Origin: Deltaproteobacteria bacterium
Lineage (GTDB): Bacteria > Desulfobacterota > BSN033 > UBA1163
Reading direction: 5' to 3'
Assembly (NCBI GenBank): GCA_016875255.1
Contig: VGRU01000036.1
Span: 1-22,698 of the forward strand
Length of the DNA stretch: 22,698 nt
Shown piece after piece: positions 2-17,797 of this stretch (its first letter is position 1; each line of letters opens with the position of its first letter). The position numbers were made by a program, and so were the translations under genes. Under the pieces are notes generated by a model that did no database searches, was not told where the DNA came from, and saw only the letters and a program-made list of their open reading frames with translations.

Positions 2-124
2 AAAACGATGTCGTGGCACTTGTCATTTAGTCATTATGAGCTAACAATTACACAGACTGGGGTCGAAGTTGCACTATACACCTTATTCGGTTTATTGATA
101 AAAAATAGGACAGCGACCATTTAA
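2..124 (+). CDS. Possible 3' end of a gene entering from the left
   Basis: One frame is open from the window edge to a TAA at 122-124 and encodes about 40 residues, including a hydrophobic run (VALYTLFGLL). It stops just before the first attC-like site, where the gene of a preceding cassette would end. The length is too short to exclude chance, and I recognise no family. Another frame closes earlier, at 28-30, so the frame choice is uncertain. Confidence 0.22.
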   Translation, partial: KTMSWHLSFSHYELTITQTGVEVALYTLFGLLIKNRTATI

Positions 125-140
125 CAGTGAAGACGAGGAA

Positions 141-198
141 ACTTCACAAATTACTCCGGCGGACGGCTGATAGCGGTCGCTCATTTTGGGCATTGGGC
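141..198 (+). other. attC-like recombination site A (degenerate)
   Basis: The right half resembles environmental integron attC sites. There is an L''-type arm GGCGGAC at 158-164, a short spacer, an L'-type arm GTCGCTC at 176-182, eight bases, and a terminal ATTGGGC at 192-198 (consensus GTTRRRY, with G changed to A). The arms pair as GCG-[G]-AC with GT-CGC, leaving one bulged G, as expected for the extrahelical base of an attC L box. The left R'' box is poor: ACTTCAC at 141-147 has CAC where AAC is expected. The site aligns without gaps to site B at 1397-1454. It lies 10 bases before the first HNH gene. Confidence 0.4.
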
Positions 199-208
199 TG
201 AGAGATCG

Positions 209-895
209 GTGGCAAGAACGCGGAAAACAATATCGGCGCTTAAACAAAAGCAGTTGCTTCAGGAAGTGGACTCCCAGTGTCCGTTTTGTCAAGATCGCGA
301 CGTCTCCACGTTTGAGTTCCACCATATCGATGGTGACCCATCGAATGACGACCTCAGCAACCTTATCGTCGCTTGTAGTTCCTGCCACACACGCATCACA
401 AAAGGCATCCTCTCAGAAGCGGACATCGTCACCAAGAAGAGGGAACTCTACTGGACTTCCCAAGTTCGCCGAAACACTGGACAAGCGGCTGTCAATGTGA
501 ACATCACTTCCTCTTCATTCCACGGCGACATCGCCCAGAGCATCACCAAGATTTCTGGAGTTAAACCCCCACGAATTGCTCATCCACCGGGGTCCATTGG
601 CGCGAACCTCGCTATGAAAGGGTATATCGACTATTTGATTGGTCGATACTTTGACTATAGAAAGGCCGACTGGAGCTATGGGAGGAAAATCCGGTTCTCC
701 CACGCCGTTATCCATAAGAACATTGAAAGGGAGTTCGGTGGAAAGACCTTCTTCCTCCCTGAAAACGCTTTTGGGAACCTTGTCACCTACCTGGCTTGGC
801 ACATCGATAGCACGATCCAAGGAAGAAGAAATGGCAGCACGGGCATCCGAAACTATCACTCTTTCGAGAAACACTGTTCAAAATACAACCTGTAG
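209..895 (+). CDS. HNH endonuclease domain protein
   Basis: A 228-residue protein with an N-terminal zinc-stabilised HNH nuclease fold. Visible residues are C24 and C27, the HH pair at 38-39, N51, and C56-x2-C59-H60. HNH domains cut DNA using a single metal ion. The remaining 150 residues are not recognised; residues 95-112 (VNVNITSSSFHGDIAQSI) resemble the polar linker strands seen in some defence-associated proteins, but this is only an impression. The start is GTG at 209, with no strong ribosome site; no better start is seen upstream in frame. It directly follows attC-like site A and precedes a second HNH gene on the same strand. The substrate is unknown; it could be a restriction, mobile-element or cassette-borne nuclease. 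Confidence 0.75.
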   Translation: MARTRKTISALKQKQLLQEVDSQCPFCQDRDVSTFEFHHIDGDPSNDDLSNLIVACSSCHTRITKGILSEADIVTKKRELYWTSQVRRNTGQAAVNVNITSSSFHGDIAQSITKISGVKPPRIAHPPGSIGANLAMKGYIDYLIGRYFDYRKADWSYGRKIRFSHAVIHKNIEREFGGKTFFLPENAFGNLVTYLAWHIDSTIQGRRNGSTGIRNYHSFEKHCSKYNL

Positions 896-989
896 CTCAA
901 GAAATCCTGGATACATATTTTCAGAAAAGGATGGTTGGTGTGGGTCGAACCAGGGTAACCACTTGAATATGAAGTGTGGATAAATCCTT

Positions 990-1439
990 ATGGCATGTTT
1001 AAAAACTCAAAAGAAATGGGTGAGACATAGGGATAAGCAACAGTGTCAAATTTGTGGGGATGTCTTGCCTGTTCACTACGGAAGGTTGGAAGTTCATCAT
1101 ATTGATCATCGTTGCAAAGGAGGATCTGATGAATTAGAGAACCTCGTGACCCTATGCGATCTTTGCCATGCGGTAATCCACATTCATATGGGGCCAGCTT
1201 GGTTAGGATTATCTGTAGTTCCAATAGAAAAAAGGCAACAGGACAAACAAATTCTCGATCTCGCGCGGGATGAATTTGAAAGTTATTTGCGTCTCCCGGT
1301 AGAAAAGAGACATAGCATCCGGAAAGAATTATGGACACAATGGGGAATTATGGATAAAAAAGGGAACAGTGACCATTCTACGGGGAACACAAGGGAATTT
1401 CAGAAGTCATTCCAGCGAACGGTTGATAGCCGTTGCTGA
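990..1439 (+). CDS. Small HNH endonuclease
   Basis: A 149-residue protein that is mostly HNH domain: C19-x2-C22, the HH pair at 36-37, GGSDELENL with N51, then C56-x2-C59-H60. The spacing of these ligands matches the HNH protein just upstream, although the sequences differ greatly, so the two could be distant paralogues or share only the fold. The start is ATG at 990 with a weak ribosome site. The last 24 or so codons run through the repeat that forms attC-like site B, and the stop codon (1437-1439) sits inside that site. The original C-terminus may therefore have been altered by the insertion, or the gene may end in the site as cassette genes often do. Confidence 0.75.
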   Translation: MACLKTQKKWVRHRDKQQCQICGDVLPVHYGRLEVHHIDHRCKGGSDELENLVTLCDLCHAVIHIHMGPAWLGLSVVPIEKRQQDKQILDLARDEFESYLRLPVEKRHSIRKELWTQWGIMDKKGNSDHSTGNTREFQKSFQRTVDSRC

Positions 1440-1454
1440 CTTTGGTCGTTAAAC
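1397..1454 (+). other. attC-like recombination site B
   Basis: The arm CAGCGAACGG (1413-1422) and the arm CCGTTGCTG (1430-1438) pair over nine bases with one bulged G. The loop is TTGATAG. The terminal R' box is GTTAAAC (1448-1454), which fits the consensus GTTRRRY exactly, and eight bases lie between GCTGA and GTT, as in many environmental attC sites. The left box ATTTCAG (1397-1403) departs from the expected YYYAAC. The site overlaps the end of the HNH gene and stands 22 bases before the next ORF, the position an attC takes between cassettes. Confidence 0.5.
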
Positions 1455-1476
1455 AGAAATGTTTGAGGGATGATAT

Positions 1477-2214
1477 ATGGAATTCTTTGAGCGGCTTTAC
1501 AGGGGGTTTGAAGCCGAACATTATGTGGCCGGAAAGCTGTTTTCAGTCGGCTACGAAGCCTTTATGCTGCCTGCTGATTTTGGCTTTGACCTTATTGTCA
1601 CGAACCAAAAAGAGCGGTCTAAGGGGCCCCGTCTGGAAGGGCGACTGCTCGAGCCACCTTTTGCTCTTCAAATCAAGTCTCGACGATTAATGTCTTCAGA
1701 TTTTCGGCCAAGCACATCGGGTCGCGATGAAGCAGAGGTCTCTATTTCGGTAAAAAAGGAAGATTTGGACTTACTGGTTAGCACAAACTACAGTTTTTTG
1801 GTTATCGTGTTGTTTATACAAGGCGATGCCAAAAGATTTGAAGATCGGACAATTCACTTCTGGTTTAGTTCAGCACAAGTTAATGCTCTTGATGAGCGTG
1901 GATATTTTCTGCCCGACGAAAACGATCGAAGAGTCCGCAACCTCAGGTGTAGTTTACGCATGTTTCCGATGCTGGTCGTCGAGTCCCTTCTTGGCACTTT
2001 GGTATCTCAGACCCACCTAACTGAAGAGGGAAGACGCATACTTCTGTCCGAAATTCCAGAACGGGTGCCCAGGACCTGGAGCGCATCTGAATATGTCGCC
2101 TTAGCGCGGAAAGCGCGAGATAAAACTGATGATCTGGTCTGGAGGCAGGTGCCAAAAGAACTGTGCGAATTAAGTAATATGGGATTCGACATCGGGTTAG
2201 GCCATTTGGACTAG
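1477..2214 (+). CDS. PD-(D/E)XK nuclease-like protein (DUF4365-like)
   Basis: A 245-residue protein whose first 100 residues look like a restriction-endonuclease-type core. They hold a helix with E14 (GFEAE), then the acidic residue D38 in a strand (FGFDLIV), then Q65-I-K67 in the next strand (ALQIKS). D-x26-QxK is a known variant of the PD-(D/E)XK active site, as in DUF4365-type proteins. The C-terminal 140 residues are not recognised. ATG at 1477 has a modest GAGGG upstream. The gene sits alone between attC-like sites B and C, so it would be a one-gene cassette. DNA cleavage and a defence role are inferred from the fold only. Confidence 0.55.
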   Translation: MEFFERLYRGFEAEHYVAGKLFSVGYEAFMLPADFGFDLIVTNQKERSKGPRLEGRLLEPPFALQIKSRRLMSSDFRPSTSGRDEAEVSISVKKEDLDLLVSTNYSFLVIVLFIQGDAKRFEDRTIHFWFSSAQVNALDERGYFLPDENDRRVRNLRCSLRMFPMLVVESLLGTLVSQTHLTEEGRRILLSEIPERVPRTWSASEYVALARKARDKTDDLVWRQVPKELCELSNMGFDIGLGHLD

Positions 2215-2340
2215 CGCGGCAAACACTTCTAACAATCGAAAAAAGGGATGGAACAAGGGGGCGTAGGTTCTGAAACAACTTGACATCGGTTGGCCATTTT
2301 TAAAGAAGTGGAAACGGGATCAAAGCTAAATTATACACTT
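2215..2340 (+). other. Spacer after PD-(D/E)XK-like gene
   Basis: No gene is seen. The string TCTAACAATC near 2229 resembles the left end of classical attC sites, but no matching L'' box follows it, so the better attC call is the site at 2341-2409. Confidence 0.3.
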
Positions 2341-2409
2341 TAAGAACAAGGCCGTTCGAGTAGAAATCCCCGACTTACAGCCGGGATTTAGCTTGACTAC
2401 GCGTTAGAT
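2341..2409 (+). other. attC-like recombination site C
   Basis: The order of boxes is that of a classical 59-base element. It has R''-like TAAGAAC (2341-2347), six bases, L'' GTTCGAG (2354-2360), a central stem AAATCCC/GGGATTT (2364-2370 with 2383-2389), L' GCTTGAC (2391-2397), five bases, and R' GTTAGAT (2403-2409, consensus GTTRRRY). L'' pairs with L' over six positions (one G-T) when one T of L'' is left out, the typical extrahelical base. The right end closely resembles the attC ends of aadA-type cassettes as I remember them. Only AAC/GTT of the outer R boxes pair. Confidence 0.55.
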
Positions 2410-2469
2410 TCATAGTTAAACAGAGCCAAAAATGTTATTATTAAAGGCAATTGAGAAGAAAGGAGGCAA

Positions 2470-2694
2470 ATGATGCGGGCAAGTGATATTCATGAAATTA
2501 TCAAATTAAGTACACCTGAAAAGATCCTGTTGGTTGAAGATCTGTGGGACAGCATTGCTTCGGATGAATCTGCTGTGCCTATCCCTCAGAGCCACATGGA
2601 AGAGTTGGACAGAAGGCTGAAAAGGTATGGATCTCCTCCAGGAAATCTCTTATCTCTTGAAGAACTTCGGACAAAGATAGAGAAAAGGAAATGA
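2470..2694 (+). CDS. Addiction module antitoxin (CHP02574 / DUF-type ParD-like)
   Basis: A 74-residue protein with the pattern of the putative addiction-module component family (TIGR02574): a start segment IHEIIKLSTPEKILLVEDLWDSIA, a middle LDRRLKRYG, and a C-terminal LSLEELRTKIEKRK. Such proteins neutralise a RelE/ParE-type toxin encoded immediately downstream and usually repress their own operon. A strong AGGAGG at 2461-2466 lies three bases before ATG 2470 and six before ATG 2473, so 2473 may be the true start. The length is normal for the family. The partner toxin downstream is truncated, so this may be an orphan antitoxin. It follows attC-like site C; toxin-antitoxin pairs are frequent in chromosomal integron arrays. 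Confidence 0.85.
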   Translation: MMRASDIHEIIKLSTPEKILLVEDLWDSIASDESAVPIPQSHMEELDRRLKRYGSPPGNLLSLEELRTKIEKRK

Positions 2695-2863: not shown

Positions 2864-2931
2864 CCCTTACAGATTTGACACACTACCGAACCTGCCGCGG
2901 TAACACGGATTTCAAATGTGCCTGATCCGAA

Positions 2932-3483
2932 CTAAGGAGTTGGATACTTCCCGTGCTCAATGACCACTTGATCCACGCCGGTCATTTCCTTCAGTTCCAC
3001 ATTGATCGAATCCTGTCTGGAGGTTTCAAGCACCTTTCCAACATAATCAGCGTGGATGGGTAACTCCCTGTGACCCCTATCAATTAAAACTGCCAATTCA
3101 ATCCGCCGGGGTCGTCCTAATTCCATCAAGGCGTCAAGCGCGGCTCGAATCGTTCTGCCTGTAAAGAGCACATCATCCACCAGAAGGACATGCTTATCCT
3201 CGATGGAAAAATGAACCTCGGCTTTCTTCACTTCGGGCGTCTGGGTCAAGCGGGTCCAGTCATCTCGATAGAGCGTAATGTCAATGACTCCTGCAGGAAG
3301 ATCAATTCCGGTCTTTTGAACGATTTTCTCTTTCAGGCGTTCGGCTAAATAGACTCCTCCTGACCGGATTCCCACCAGAACCATCTCTTCCAAAACAGGA
3401 TGCTTCTGAAGCAACCGGTCACTTATCCGGTTCAAGGATTCCTCAATATCGACTTCGTTGAGTATGATTTGCTTTGAAGGCAT
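2932..3483 (-). CDS. pyrR: Bifunctional pyr operon regulator / uracil phosphoribosyltransferase PyrR
   Basis: A 183-residue type I phosphoribosyltransferase. The PRPP-binding loop VLLVDDVLFTGRTIRAALD is at residues 99-117, the loop GIRSGGVYLAERL lies near 38-50, and DWTRLTQTP is the flexible hood region. In other bacteria PyrR binds pyr mRNA leaders in response to UMP and also converts uracil plus PRPP to UMP. Length and motifs are typical and complete. It lies 11 bases after the dac gene on the same strand, so the two are probably cotranscribed. No pyrimidine biosynthesis gene or PyrR-type leader is seen in the window, so its RNA targets would be elsewhere, or it may act mainly as a salvage enzyme. 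Confidence 0.93.
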   Translation of the reverse strand: MPSKQIILNEVDIEESLNRISDRLLQKHPVLEEMVLVGIRSGGVYLAERLKEKIVQKTGIDLPAGVIDITLYRDDWTRLTQTPEVKKAEVHFSIEDKHVLLVDDVLFTGRTIRAALDALMELGRPRRIELAVLIDRGHRELPIHADYVGKVLETSRQDSINVELKEMTGVDQVVIEHGKYPTP

Positions 3484-3494
3484 CTTGTAACGCT

Positions 3495-4799
3495 TTACAG
3501 CTTCCTCCGCGGAGGTCGCCGGAAAAACCAGAGTCCGATCACGCAGAGAAGGACAAGTCCTAAGATGCCTCCAACAAGGTAGGGCCAGGGAGGAATCAGG
3601 CTCTTCTGCACATCGGACTGGGCAAAGAGGTTAATTTCCTTTATCGTTTTCCCTTCCTTCTGGACGAGAACCTTTGCCAAAACCTGCCCCTTCTGTATGG
3701 GGGCGGACACAAATGCCGGCAACTGGGGAATAGCGGACGCCAGGTTTTCTTTCCCCTTTGGCACGGTCACCCGACCGTCTTCGGATGCCATCAGGCTCAC
3801 CTGATCCAATTTTCCTCTTTTTACTTTAAGTGGTCCGAAGGAGTCGCCTTTCTTAACCGCCTGCACTGTGGAAAAATTCTTGAAACCATATTCCAGCAAT
3901 TTCTGTGTCTCGGGTGCCCTTTTCTTCATCTTATCACATCCCATCACCACGGCGATCATTCGCTGGCCCTCTCTCTTTGCCGTCGCCACGAGATGATACC
4001 CGGACTCTTCGATGTGACCTGTCTTCAAACCATCCACACCGATATTCTTCTGCAAAAGGGTATTCCGATTCCCCTGCTTAATTCCGTTATATTCGAATTC
4101 CGTCGTGGAATGGATCGCCAGTGTCTCCGGGTGGTCTTCGACATATCGTTTTGCAAGGAGAGCCATATCCATGGCGGTTGTATATTGATCGTCTGCAGGC
4201 ATGCCGTGAGAGTTCTTGAATTGTGTATTCTTCATTCCCAGAGCTTTCGCCTTCTCATTCATTTTGGAGGAGAAGACCTCTTCAGAGCCTGCCAGATGCT
4301 CGGCCAGGGCAATACAGGCATCATTCCCTGATGCAATAGCGACCCCTTTTACCAGATCTTCCACCTTGACCCGCTCTCCCACCTTAATGAACATCTTGGA
4401 GCCCTGGGTCTTCCATGCCTTCTCGCTCACGGTCACCATATCGTCCATCTTCAATTGTCCGGCGCGGATGGCATCAAAGATCAGATAGAGGGTGAGAACC
4501 TTGATAAAACTGGCTGGAGGGATTTTTAAATCAGGATTCTGTTCATAAAGAATTTCGCCTGTCAACCCATCCATCAGAACTGCGGACTGGGCATCGCATT
4601 GTAGGCCGCCCTGGGCAGTTGCCTGTGCTGGAGTCTCCTTGGCCGGTTCGGCCTTTTTCTTGGAAGGCGTAGCCTGCGCTGGTTTTGTTTGAGATGATTT
4701 TTTGACTGTTTTGCTTAAAGCCTCCGGAACAGAGACCAGAGCAAGCAATAAGGAAATCAAGGTTAAAATTGAAAGGTGCTTTTGAAATTGAAGCTTCAT
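3495..4799 (-). CDS. D-alanyl-D-alanine carboxypeptidase (peptidase S11, PBP5/6-like)
   Basis: A 434-residue penicillin-binding protein that trims the terminal D-Ala from peptidoglycan stem peptides. From the start at 4799 there is a signal peptide (1-28), a Lys/Pro/Ala-rich linker (30-63) and the catalytic domain, with SxxK at S97-K100, SGN at 157-159 and KTG at 259-261. A smaller PBP5_C-like domain and one C-terminal membrane helix (about 403-425) ending in RRPPRRKL follow, so the enzyme is anchored on the outer face of the inner membrane. A longer frame begins at 4853, but ATG 4799 has AGGAGG five bases upstream, starts directly with the signal peptide, and lies downstream of a good promoter (4825-4853) that would cut off the longer start. 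Probably cotranscribed with pyrR. Confidence 0.92.
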   Translation of the reverse strand: MKLQFQKHLSILTLISLLLALVSVPEALSKTVKKSSQTKPAQATPSKKKAEPAKETPAQATAQGGLQCDAQSAVLMDGLTGEILYEQNPDLKIPPASFIKVLTLYLIFDAIRAGQLKMDDMVTVSEKAWKTQGSKMFIKVGERVKVEDLVKGVAIASGNDACIALAEHLAGSEEVFSSKMNEKAKALGMKNTQFKNSHGMPADDQYTTAMDMALLAKRYVEDHPETLAIHSTTEFEYNGIKQGNRNTLLQKNIGVDGLKTGHIEESGYHLVATAKREGQRMIAVVMGCDKMKKRAPETQKLLEYGFKNFSTVQAVKKGDSFGPLKVKRGKLDQVSLMASEDGRVTVPKGKENLASAIPQLPAFVSAPIQKGQVLAKVLVQKEGKTIKEINLFAQSDVQKSLIPPWPYLVGGILGLVLLCVIGLWFFRRPPRRKL

Positions 4800-4824
4800 C
4801 CATTCCTCCTGAGATTTTTCAGTG

Positions 4825-4853
4825 TTCATAACAGATTCACTCCCCTTTTTCAA
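4825..4853 (-). promoter_or_regulatory. Sigma-70-type promoter for dac-pyrR
   Basis: On the minus strand, TTGAAA (4848-4853) and TATGAA (4825-4830) are separated by exactly 17 bases. Transcription would begin near 4818, leaving a short leader before AGGAGG and ATG 4799. Confidence 0.45.
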
Positions 4854-4860
4854 TCCGGCG

Positions 4861-4889
4861 TTGAAAACGCTCGCCGTTTGGTTTAATAT
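4861..4889 (+). promoter_or_regulatory. Possible sigma-70-type promoter for the HgdB/BcrC-like gene
   Basis: TTGAAA (4861-4866) and TAATAT (4884-4889) are 17 bases apart. Initiation near 4896 would leave only about five bases before ATG 4901, so the message would be almost leaderless. A dyad GCGTT-GAA-AACGC (4858-4870) covers the -35 box and could be an operator. It faces the dac promoter. Confidence 0.3.
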
Positions 4890-4900
4890 GTGGGCGGATC

Positions 4901-6031
4901 ATGGAAAATAAACCTTCTCTCATCAGGGAGTTTGAAAGAGTCGCCTCTCTCGAATATAAGGACATCGCCTCCCAACTTCCTGGAGATTGCATCCCGATCG
5001 GTTTTTTCTGCCCCTATGTCCCGGAAGAAATGCTCCATGCCGCAGGAGCTTTTCCCCTTCGCCTGATGGGAACGCCGATCAGAATGTCCCATGTCCAGGC
5101 TCATCTTCCTCCCAATTGTTGCCATCTGGTGAAATCCTCTTTCGAAAGCCTGCTCAGGGGAGAGCTCGACTTTCTGAAGGGCATCGTTTTTTCCCACACC
5201 TGCGATGCCATGCAGGGGCTTTCGGACATCTGGGCTTTTCAAAAACGCCTTCCCTTTCAATTCGATTTTATGACGCCTTCAAATCTTTCCTCCGAGAGAT
5301 CTCGCCCCTATTTGAAGGCCGAGATCGAACGGTTTAAAGCCTTTCTCGATGCCAATGTCCGGAAGATCACACCCCAGGACCTGAAGGCTTCCATCCACCT
5401 CTTCAACCAGATCAGGGAAAAAACTCAAACCCTCTATCGACTCAGACGGAAATGGCCTGGCTGGATATCCGGCAGTGATTTTGCCCAAATCATCCGGGCA
5501 GGATACCTGATGGACCGTAGCCGCTACCTAAACCTTTTAGGCCAACTTTTAGAGACCCTTCCTGAAAAAAGTGAGGATAATGGACACCCCATCCCGGTCT
5601 TTCTTGCCGGGAATATGACTCACTCCCCTTCATATTTTTCCATGATGGAAGAGGCAGGGGCCTCCGTGGTCTCCGATAACCTCTGCAGCGGAGCGCGATT
5701 TCTTCGCCTCATGACACGTGAGGATATCGATCCGATAGACGCCCTCACTGAAAGATACTTTTCATCCTTCCTGTGTCCGGCAAAACACTCCGGAGTCCAG
5801 GCCCATACAGAAACCCTCATCAAAGAAGTTGAGGAGGCCGGCGCCAGAGGCGTGATCTTCCTCTTCTATAAATACTGTGAGCCACACTACTTTGACTATC
5901 CCGATCTCAAAAAGGCCCTCGAGGCAAAGGGGATTCCTTCTCTGCTTCTCGAAGTGGATGACCCCGCCACCTCGCAGGGGCAACTGAAAATACGGATACA
6001 GGCGTTTGTGGAAATGCTTTCCTCTGTGTAA
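4901..6031 (+). CDS. 2-hydroxyacyl-CoA dehydratase / benzoyl-CoA reductase family subunit (HgdB/BcrC-like)
   Basis: A 376-residue member of the HGD-D family (PF06050), whose proteins bind [4Fe-4S] clusters and carry out low-potential one-electron chemistry on acyl-CoA thioesters. Recognisable parts are FFCPYVPEEMLHAAGAFPLRL (C37), NCCHLVKSS (C73, C74), SHTCDAM (C101), NLCSGARF (C262) and the C-terminal FLFYKYCEPHYFDYP (C326) followed by LLLEVDD. Length and position match the smaller, BcrC-type subunit. The second subunit follows on the same strand after a 114-base spacer that holds a palindrome. No ATP-dependent activator (HgdC/BcrA/BcrD type) is in the window. The substrate cannot be read from sequence: an aromatic CoA ester or a 2-hydroxyacyl-CoA are both possible. 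Confidence 0.85.
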   Translation: MENKPSLIREFERVASLEYKDIASQLPGDCIPIGFFCPYVPEEMLHAAGAFPLRLMGTPIRMSHVQAHLPPNCCHLVKSSFESLLRGELDFLKGIVFSHTCDAMQGLSDIWAFQKRLPFQFDFMTPSNLSSERSRPYLKAEIERFKAFLDANVRKITPQDLKASIHLFNQIREKTQTLYRLRRKWPGWISGSDFAQIIRAGYLMDRSRYLNLLGQLLETLPEKSEDNGHPIPVFLAGNMTHSPSYFSMMEEAGASVVSDNLCSGARFLRLMTREDIDPIDALTERYFSSFLCPAKHSGVQAHTETLIKEVEEAGARGVIFLFYKYCEPHYFDYPDLKKALEAKGIPSLLLEVDDPATSQGQLKIRIQAFVEMLSSV

Positions 6032-6032
6032 C

Positions 6033-6129
6033 ATTTCGGATTTCGGAATGCGGAATTCGGATTTAAAATTTAAACTAAAACTTTTTAGCAGTATTTTATT
6101 CCGAAATCCGCAATCCGCATTCCGAAATC
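6033..6129. repeat. Word palindrome 1 (TTTCGGA/ATGCGGA)
   Basis: The left arm (6033-6064) is built from the words TTTCGGA and ATGCGGA, the right arm (6098-6128) from their complements, around an AT-rich centre. Pairing is imperfect but runs through about 30 bases. It separates the two dehydratase-family genes. Confidence 0.6.
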
Positions 6130-6145
6130 ACCCTGGAAGAAAATC

Positions 6146-7381
6146 ATGACAGACCGGAAACTTAATGCCAATCCCTATCGTCCGATTAAATCAACTGCGG
6201 CTTACCGTCGTCTGATGATGGCCTACTATTTTATGGTGAAGCACCCTGCCTGGTTTGGAAAAAAGGTCGCATGGATCACCAGCGGCGGGCCTGTCGAACC
6301 TCTCTATGCGATGGGAGTCCTTCCCTTCTATCCGGAAAATTACGGGGCCATGTGCGGTGCTTCGAGGATGTCAGCGTCTCTCTGCGAAGCCGCTGAACAT
6401 AAAGGATACTCCCATGACCTCTGCTCCTATGCCCTGACGGATATTGGTTCATTCTTTACCGGCAAAGGACCCATTGGACGGCTTCCGAAACCTGACTTTC
6501 TCATCTGCGGGAACAATATTTGCGGCACAGTGATCAAATGGTATGAGATTCAAGCCCGGGCATTTAATGTGCCCCTCTTCTTTCTCGACACTCCTTATAT
6601 CCACGATGAGATCCATGAGCACAACCTCCGATATGTGGAAAGGGAGATGGAGGCCTATCTTGCATTTCTCGAAGATCAGATGAAACGGTCCTTCCCTGAA
6701 AAACGGTTTCAAAAAGTCGTCTCACGCTCGTTTGAGACGATCTCTCTCTGGAGGGAAATCCTCGATCTGTCGCGGAACCATCCCGCGCCATTTGCTGCTT
6801 TCGATGCCTTTATCCACATGGCCCCGATCGTGACGCTCCGGGGGACCCGCTGGGCAGTCCGTTATTACAAAAAACTGAAAAGGGAATTAGAAGAAAGAGT
6901 CAAAAAGGGAGTGGGGGCTTTTGCCCGAGAGGAGATCCGGCTGATCTGGGACAACATCCCCATCTGGTATGATATCCGGAACCTTTCCAAATTGCTTTCA
7001 TCCAATGGGGCTGTGCTCGTGGCCGATACCTATACCTCGGCCTGGGCGATGGAGGAACCTAACCTGACCTATTCTCTGGATGGAATGGCCCGGGCCTATG
7101 CCACGATCCATCTTAACCGTGGCCTCGATTATAAAATCAAAAAGATGGTCAATCTGATTCTGCGCTATGAGGCGGATGGATTCCTCATGCATTCGAATCG
7201 AAGCTGTAAGCCCTATTCTCTCGGACAATACGATATGAGGCGGGAAGTGACCCGGCTGACCGGGAAACCCTGCCTGATCATCGAAGCTGACCACACCGAT
7301 TCCAGAAGCTACGCCCCCCAACAGGTCGAAAAACAGATCCTGATGTTTTTGGAGATCATCAAGAACAAAAAAACAGGATGA
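6146..7381 (+). CDS. 2-hydroxyacyl-CoA dehydratase / benzoyl-CoA reductase family subunit (BcrB-like)
   Basis: A 411-residue HGD-D family protein and probable partner of the gene just upstream. N-terminal features are WITSGGPVEPLYAMGVLPFYPENYGAMCGASR (C70), C80, C93, and a segment ICGNNICGTVIKWYE (C121, C126). Near the C-terminus HSNRSCKPYSLGQYDM precedes LIIEADHTDSRSYAPQQVEKQI, a pattern typical of this family's second Fe-S half. Length and gene order (smaller subunit first) resemble bcrC-bcrB of ATP-dependent benzoyl-CoA reductases, but the ATPase subunits bcrA/bcrD do not follow. ATG 6146 has GGAAG upstream. Its stop is only nine bases from the stop of the convergent nitroreductase gene, leaving no space for a separate terminator. 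Confidence 0.83.
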   Translation: MTDRKLNANPYRPIKSTAAYRRLMMAYYFMVKHPAWFGKKVAWITSGGPVEPLYAMGVLPFYPENYGAMCGASRMSASLCEAAEHKGYSHDLCSYALTDIGSFFTGKGPIGRLPKPDFLICGNNICGTVIKWYEIQARAFNVPLFFLDTPYIHDEIHEHNLRYVEREMEAYLAFLEDQMKRSFPEKRFQKVVSRSFETISLWREILDLSRNHPAPFAAFDAFIHMAPIVTLRGTRWAVRYYKKLKRELEERVKKGVGAFAREEIRLIWDNIPIWYDIRNLSKLLSSNGAVLVADTYTSAWAMEEPNLTYSLDGMARAYATIHLNRGLDYKIKKMVNLILRYEADGFLMHSNRSCKPYSLGQYDMRREVTRLTGKPCLIIEADHTDSRSYAPQQVEKQILMFLEIIKNKKTG

Positions 7382-10127: not shown

Positions 10128-10142
10128 AATTAACTGCACGTA

Positions 10143-10260
10143 ATGTCAAATGACAAAATTCAAATTTCAAATCAAATCCAAAGATCAAATGTCATAAAAT
10201 ATTTAAATTTTGGAATTTGGCATTCCTTTGGCATTTGGATTTTGACATTTGGAATTCACT
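10143..10260. repeat. Word palindrome 2 (CAAATTTCAAAT type)
   Basis: The left arm repeats words such as AAATTCAAATTTCAAATC, and the right arm repeats their complements (GGAATTTGGCATT, GGATTTTGACATTTGG). The spacer between the P-loop kinase and APH-like genes consists almost entirely of this. Confidence 0.6.
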
Positions 10261-10268
10261 TATCATCG

Positions 10269-14730: not shown

Positions 14731-14812
14731 AACGATGAACATTAAACGAGGAACGATGAACGGTGTATTATCTCTTTTTATATTGTTCATCGTACATCGT
14801 TCATTGTACTAA
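14731..14812. repeat. Word palindrome 4 (AACGATGAAC)
   Basis: AACGATGAAC words on the left (14731-14761) face GTTCATCGTACATCGTTCATTG on the right (14784-14806). The same word builds the palindrome at 17727-17797. Confidence 0.65.
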
Positions 14813-16198: not shown

Positions 16199-16394
16199 AA
16201 AAGGGGGGTGGGTATGCTGGGCGGACACGGGAAGCGGAGGCTTCCCAAGCCTTTACAGCGACACCTTTAATAGTTTTGCTGCTTATGTTTCAAGCATACC
16301 TCATAGGTCACCTCAGGTGACATCGAATGTTTCCCATAAAACATATAAATAATCCGCAATTGTAAAGGGTTGGAAGCATGCCCACCCCCCTTTT
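16199..16394. repeat. Inverted-repeat element with 19-bp ends in the pgk-tpiA gap
   Basis: AAAAGGGGGGTGGGTATGC (16199-16217) and the complement of GCATGCCCACCCCCCTTTT (16376-16394) agree at 18 of 19 positions, enclosing 196 bp. Inside are stems GGAAGC/GCTTCC and GTCACC-TCA-GGTGAC. No reading frame for a transposase exists. No clear target duplication is seen. Confidence 0.65.
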
Positions 16395-17726: not shown

Positions 17727-17797
17727 CGTACATTGAACGATGGACAATGAACAAAAATATAACACACTGTTCATCGTTTATCGTTTAATGTTCATCG
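17727..17797. repeat. Word palindrome 6 (GTTCATCGT), same word as palindrome 4
   Basis: CATTGAACGATGGACAATGAAC on the left (17731-17752) faces GTTCATCGTTTATCGTTTAATGTTCATCG on the right (17769-17797), in the gap-pgk spacer. The word is shared with the spacer between secG and tRNA-Leu. Confidence 0.65.

Follow-up and report, generated by a model that had tools for sequence, protein, structure and literature searches.

A probable decayed end of an integron cassette array in a little-known lineage of Desulfobacterota

The attC sites of integrons carry two consensus boxes, R' (GTTRRRY) and R'' (RYYYAAC), and the integron integrase cuts between the G and the TT of R'. The choice of the attC strand and the extrahelical bases have been treated in earlier work (PMC2727003). 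A cluster of attC sites lacking an integron integrase (CALIN) is defined as two or more attC sites spaced by under 4 kb in the absence of an integrase (PMC9668308). One CALIN, that of Halorhodospira halochloris, is adjacent to ISHahl1, an insertion sequence (IS) of the IS200/605 group (PMC7923331). Here we analyse a stretch of 22,698 nucleotides (hereafter the window), i.e. positions 1 to 22,698 of contig VGRU01000036.1 (assembly GCA_016875255.1), from a deltaproteobacterium of the GTDB lineage Desulfobacterota; BSN033; UBA1163. Its left end is most probably the decayed end of an integron cassette array, either a CALIN or what erosion has left of a chromosomal integron's tail. The element is most likely real but of an unremarkable kind, from a bacterial lineage of which little is known.

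The locus resembles the described systems in part. As in a CALIN or the tail of a sedentary chromosomal integron (definition from PMC9668308), two sites, A and B (Table 1), lie about 1.2 kb apart in one orientation, with small unrelated genes between them. Two attC sites within 4 kb are found with R2, one of the covariance models described below, and the strict model R3 gives B only (expectation value, E, 0.13). Unlike those systems, the window has just two attC sites, one of them weak, both R'' boxes are degenerate, and the contig ends to the left: its position 1 lies left of site A, and the sequence beyond is off the contig. Closer counterparts are the attC sites of arrays in the same family (genomes G001, G003, G008, G015 and others), which are described by the same models R1 and R2 and of which those of G001 and G015 share 83-84% of the core of B. 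However, such reference sites mostly keep AAC in R'' (35 of the 38 boxes with letters among 40 sites) and GTT in R' (35/37). The H. halochloris cluster is similar in that attC sites lie beside a Y1-type single-strand transposon. It differs in that one IS directly follows the last attC there (PMC7923331), whereas here Y1 genes (Y1_Tnp, PF01797) are close to attC sites or interspersed with them in several genomes, on the attC strand. In the window, one box matches the terminus of an intact Y1 element almost perfectly, and boxes near A, B and a third candidate site, C, resemble such ends; no Y1 gene was seen in its array part, only end remnants.

The models R1, R2 and R3 were built by us and are distinct from the published IntegronFinder/HattCI model; the threshold of 20 bits of another attC pipeline (PMC9892861) is not directly comparable with their scores. 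Candidate loci were of two types, those retrieved because their DNA resembles site B (L047-L050) and those around integrase hits (L071-L080, with L080 a fragment below the cut-off only), and clear attC sites occur in both. R1 consists of 19 aligned sites, none from the window: 14 come from integrase-linked loci, four from L047 and L048, and one from L101, a locus reached via a box near site B. In this alignment R''/R' and L''/L' are paired, two bases of the L'' side being left unpaired, and 79.7% of the cells pair. The covariation score of the reference sites is 0.356, compared with 0.136 in shuffles and at most 0.132 in slid controls. Over 16 candidate array loci (217,704 bases), R1 retrieved 40 sites at E ≤ 1 in 12 loci, always on a single strand within a locus, and none in L075, L076, L079 and L127. 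R2 was built from these 40 sites, some of which are weak, and likewise contains no window site. Because R1 and R2 contain sites from loci found via resemblance to site B or the nearby box, we added R3, a strict model of 15 sites from integrase-linked loci only, with part of one row misaligned. In a negative control, the pyrR surroundings of 12 relatives (48,248 bases) yielded no R2 hit at E ≤ 1.

Integrons are found in close relatives. Of 59 relatives, 22 have an integron integrase (TIGR02249) that scores above its cut-off, including six of the 10 genomes of the same genus (G002, G003, G006, G008, G009 and G010). G001, the nearest genome to the window (33% of sampled words), is not among them. 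Sites of the attC type were found in 15/17 genomes of the family; counts per genome are lower bounds (150 candidates scored per genome).

Within the 22.7 kb of the window, both R1 (run with filters off) and R2 rank B first and A second, the third place reaching 11.2 and 11.5 bits, respectively. Site B scores 34.5 bits with R1 (E 1.6e-6) and 34.1 bits with R2 (E 4e-7), and R3 also places it at the top of the window (14.5 bits, the next being 9.0 bits). Site A scores 16.8 bits with R1 (E 0.035) and 24.6 bits with R2 (E 1.4e-4). The two sites are 75% identical to each other over 103 nt (92-194 and 1348-1450). Relatives of B were found by DNA similarity in G001 and G015 (L049, 84%, and L050, 83% identical over 36-43 nt), and R3 confirms both as attC sites (L049 9982-10042, E 4.5e-6; L050 1-46, E 1e-5), together with the B-resembling sites in L047, L048 and L101. 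Site A has a homologue in G015 (L028), where a stretch of 82% identity holds the site and the start of an HNH gene.

The initial annotation had placed three attC-like sites here, with L-type arms carrying a bulge, with ends in or near GTTRRRY and oriented like the genes. B is borne out by the models and by homology, A less well (R1 and R2), and C not at all (at most 3.9 bits). In the model alignments, A and B both form an L''/L' hairpin whose extrahelical bases are on the L'' side; several of its pairs are non-standard. As to orientation, A and B both have the strand of the genes (+); HNH gene 2 has its 3' end within B, and the corresponding gene on the 5' side of A is beyond the contig end. 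GTTRRRY is exact at B and is present at C as GTTAGAT, and the box of A differs from it. The R'' boxes, which the annotation had already called poor, match RYYYAAC at neither site (Table 1), as opposed to the AAC kept in most reference sites. DNA-folding z-scores of A, B and C range from -0.7 to -1.4, except for -2.3 for A on the - strand, so that folding alone is not decisive. At the level of sequence, B is confirmed as an attC site by the models and by homology to confirmed attC sites, and A is a probable attC remnant, given R1, R2 and its similarity to B.

The refutation proposed with the annotation combined a lack of attC hits with a gene order conserved in relatives without junctions at GTTRRRY. 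Run with our own models, this test returned attC hits, and homology blocks break at the R' boxes. G168 (L247) matches the region of the DUF4365-like gene at 93% over 179 nt, from window position 1448, which is the G of GTTAAAC in B, to the end of the available L247 DNA. G055 (L245) matches the same region at 76% from position 1455. In L245 an attC lies directly after the DUF4365 stop codon (2249-2325; R2 E 0.0049, R3 E 0.019), and its probable counterpart in the window is the matching R'' box alone (TTCTAAC). For HNH gene 1, window positions 196-902 are 83% identical in DNA to positions 939-1645 of L127, from a metagenome-assembled genome (MAG) of Terriglobia (JAIQFM010000076.1). This similarity begins inside the R' of A, stops 7 nt past the stop codon and extends beyond the gene by a few bases only. 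Being near start codons, the junctions in L127 and L245 weigh less than that in L247. The shared sequences begin at R' boxes, and the HNH and DUF4365-like genes are putative arrivals as cassettes.

The DUF4365-like gene has 116 homologues, and no relative of its protein was found among viral contigs. In 395 genomes of the phylum, an even sample of a larger group, the DUF4365 protein matched three; for HNH gene 2 the figure is one of 395. Matches of the HNH genes in PADLOC and NCBIfam are limited to the HNH part and stay under the curated cut-offs where such exist.

Several observations weigh against an array end. The strict model gives B an E of only 0.13 and does not list A (E above 10). Site A is also weak by R1, and its homologue in L028 scores only 12.2 bits with R2. 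Some training sites of R1 and R2 come from loci that were retrieved for their resemblance to B or the nearby box. In L127 and L245 the boundary is 13-22 nt ahead of a start codon, a place at which coding homology fades in any case. The DNA before the junction in L247 and L245 yielded no attC, and neither did L127, L246, L248 and L249. Finally, no integrase was found among the window open reading frames (ORFs) scanned, which were a part of all ORFs.

If the left end is a decayed array, its history may be outlined as follows, the order of events being inferred. Cassettes would have been added by the general mechanism, the integron integrase cutting between the G and the TT of the R' of a folded single-stranded attC, and the HNH and DUF4365-like genes would have come in this way. 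The array would then have decayed. Both A and B now lack the AAC of R'', and A also the G of R'. Two HNH genes occupy one interval between attC sites, with HNH gene 2 reading into attC B. The attC of the DUF4365 cassette seems reduced to its R'', next to a solo Y1 end of the type of REP-associated tyrosine transposases (RAYT; REP, repetitive extragenic palindrome). With such boxes, recombination at A and B would be predicted to be weak or absent.

Signs of this decay are seen in the interval between A and B. The annotation had listed its two genes as a weak point; both are HNH genes, with no attC found between them. Most homologues of HNH gene 2 (47/71) are 117-128 aa long; given this usual length, the last ~25 residues of the window gene are encoded by the repeat box and attC B. 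In a C-terminal alignment of 10 homologues, P0002 (98% identical) and P0023 are also longer-tailed. Judged from its protein sequence, the tail of P0002 may read through a similar site into another repeat box.

Table 1. Features of the left end of the window. Positions are those of the window.
Feature	Position	Strand	Remarks
R''-like box AGCTAAC, isolated	39-45	+	possible remnant of a further attC, weak; R2 only 0.8 bits over 37-76
Box GGGGTCGAAGTTGC...	59-85	+	resembles Y1 (RAYT-type) terminal repeats; direct repeat D3; related to 2316-2342
Box AATAGGACAGCGACCATTTA	104-123	+	recurs in G012, next to a truncated Y1 gene and attC, and in G015, close to an attC
Site A, probable damaged attC	139-200	+	R'' degenerate ACTTCAC (141-147), R' ATTGGGC (192-198)
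HNH endonuclease gene 1, 228 aa, putative cassette gene	209-895	+	PF01844 E 4.6e-6
HNH endonuclease gene 2, 149 aa	990-1439	+	PF01844 E 6.8e-10
Box GGGAACAGTGACCATTCTA	1362-1380	+	same kind as 104-123
Site B, attC	1395-1456	+	R'' degenerate ATTTCAG (1397-1403), R' GTTAAAC (1448-1454)
DUF4365-like gene, 245 aa, putative cassette gene	1477-2214	+	PF14280 E 0.0033, below cut-off
Box TTCTAAC, probable R'' of an attC belonging to the DUF4365 cassette and otherwise lost	2227-2233	+	aligns to L245
Solo left end of a Y1-transposon family, GGGGGCGTAGGTTCTGAAACAACTTGACA	2257-2285	+	28/29 identical to the end of the intact L177 element
Box GGGATCAAAGCTAAATTATACACTTTA	2316-2342	+	same kind as 59-85; similar box just before an attC R'' in G001 (L016)
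Site C, hairpin and GTTAGAT (2403-2409)	2341-2409	+	unsupported as attC
Unstab_antitox gene, 74 aa	2470-2694	+	PF09720 E 1e-15
ParE-type toxin frame, C-terminal remnant, 56 aa	2693-2863	+	PF05016 E 0.089, below cut-off
Synteny break	2926	.	core chromosome (pyrR onward) to the right, common to relatives

Other explanations of the left end give different weight to the same evidence. The array might still be active, with A and B recombining despite their changed boxes through an integrase elsewhere in the genome. B keeps GTTAAAC and an L''/L' hairpin whose unpaired bases lie on the L'' side as in the model, and an integrase acting in trans can still excise or capture CALIN cassettes, as stated in PMC9668308. 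Yet AAC is lost from both R'' boxes while 35/38 reference sites keep it, and A is without GTT, so that continued activity is unlikely. The sites might also owe nothing to an integron: A and B would then be dispersed Y1 repeats, similar to REP sequences or to miniature inverted-repeat transposable elements (MITE), that fold like attC by chance. In favour of this, the ~40 nt that precede the hairpin are common to A and B and contain a box that recurs next to a truncated Y1 gene; the neighbourhood of attC sites is enriched in Y1 genes (see below); and the strict attC model alone is not significant for A or B. This is nevertheless quite unlikely. The same strict model identifies the relatives of B in L049 and L050 as attC, and strings of sites next to intI genes are detected by the very models that detect A and B. 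R''/R' and L''/L' covary in the reference sites, and of 63 attC sites examined only 7, including one that just equals the threshold, have a Y1-type end no more than 60 nt away.

The position of the array raises another doubt, because synteny breaks sharply at 2926. The contig could be chimeric, an array fragment of another organism having been misassembled onto the pyrR region. A piece of the same antitoxin lies beside pyrR in G005, however, which ties at least that part to the locus. The closest relative found for site A is in the same family (G015), and the Y1 end at 2257-2285 recurs in G001. We thus regard a chimera as very unlikely. Of the array end proposed in the initial annotation, there remain the attC remains in one orientation, the junctions at R' boxes and the integrons of close relatives; site C and the toxin-antitoxin cassette fall away.

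Site C was rejected as an attC. It scores at most 3.9 bits on either strand (3.9 bits with R1, 3.8 bits with R2 for a partial placement) and is not listed by R3. A loose score that asks for an R' box plus an inverted repeat places C 19th of 1622 candidates on the + strand of the window, B 80th and A nowhere; such a criterion does not discriminate, and C is not exceptional under it. The home-made scan, based on R', R'' and arm complementarity, was also too loose, with 241 window sites at a cut-off of 27 and shuffles reaching 44.7. It served only to seed reference sites and to gauge site C.

The left 2.9 kb hold HNH gene 1, HNH gene 2, the DUF4365-like gene, the Unstab_antitox gene and the toxin frame, all on the + strand. 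The annotation had the array carry nuclease and toxin-antitoxin genes. The former part stands, as the HNH genes lie in the interval between the sites, whereas the toxin-antitoxin pair was rejected as a cassette. The toxin frame is truncated, covering only positions 56-89 of the 89 of the ParE_toxin profile, and a piece of the antitoxin gene is found beside pyrR in G005 (L083), with an 80% DNA match over 70 nt (window 2613-2682). These two facts make the pyrR flank a more likely home for the pair than a cassette, and it probably belongs to that flank. In the same G005 locus (L083 1-600), a different toxin-antitoxin-like pair (ORFs of 62 aa and 99 aa, named by eye) precedes the antitoxin remnant.

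To the right of the break, window positions 2926-7364 are 93% identical to G001:C74. In six of the seven same-genus genomes in which pyrR was found, it is followed by the same ABC-transporter DNA (L081, L082, L084-L087); in the seventh, G005 (L083), that place holds the antitoxin piece mentioned above. Two genes at 4901-7381 are of the 2-hydroxyacyl-CoA dehydratase / benzoyl-CoA reductase type, under equivalog cut-offs. Repeated stretches at 10142-10268 and 16251-16378, which also match G001:C74 elsewhere, resemble degenerate dispersed elements. Strong inverted repeats at 14741-14805 and 17732-17789, which top the loose hairpin scan, are possibly terminators or small mobile repeats. An Rfam scan of the window gave 12 matches at E ≤ 10, of which a tRNA alone is above the gathering score.

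The Y1 elements of this family, which we take to be of the RAYT / IS200-like kind, deserve separate attention. The solo end at 2257-2285 is also identical at 27 of 29 positions to the end of the L163/L165 element, and it has 93% matches on four contigs of G001, each of which also carries Y1 genes. Boxes of the 59-85 type bound intact Y1 elements in relatives; the box at 59-85 itself scores only 5 against the library of Y1 ends (threshold 9), so its assignment to Y1 is tentative. The similar boxes before A, B and C may be Y1 ends.

We surveyed 80 loci (L158-L237) of eight chosen genomes (G001, G003, G008, G010, G012, G014, G015 and G016) with R2. They represent 81 of the 82 Y1 matches of these genomes (G012:C85 was dropped), 17 genomes together having 137. 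Of 42 matches, two were excluded from the count, a weak opposite-strand shadow in L172 and a hit in control locus L243. An attC lies within 3 kb in 18/80 Y1 loci (16 at E ≤ 0.001), and in those 18 loci 18 of the 19 Y1 genes are on the attC strand (p about 8e-5). At most about 4.8% of these genomes is within 3 kb of a counted attC, against which 16/80 gives p about 1e-6. When the four loci that supplied training sites are removed, 14/76 remain (p about 1e-5), or 12/76 at the stricter cut (p about 2e-4). All these enrichment figures are approximate because attC counts are lower bounds. An rve control gave attC in 1/7 loci; it is too small, and its flanks are shorter. A fixed spacing between Y1 ends and attC was rejected on the 7/63 count given above (the 63 being a part of the attC sites found): three shuffled regions pass the same test, and the library of intact elements alone gives 4/63.

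The co-orientation would also be expected if Y1 genes merely travel as cassettes. Y1 transposons and integron arrays could instead be coupled in this family, with Y1 elements entering co-oriented and solo ends eroding R'' and fusing neighbouring cassettes; we consider this possible but doubtful. Literature searches for a Y1/RAYT-integron link, covering listings and the openings of abstracts, showed no report of Y1 enrichment near attC.

If the Y1 link holds, it would provide a testable cause of attC decay and cassette fusion. If true, it would also amount to a route of array decay, or of the making of new cassettes, driven by a second single-strand element. To our knowledge, this aspect of the origin and loss of cassettes is still open. 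One nuclease gene, HNH gene 1, is common to the window and the Terriglobia MAG at the 83% identity reported above. The results suggest that arrays are common in this little-studied family and old enough to have left decayed tails at changed chromosomal positions.

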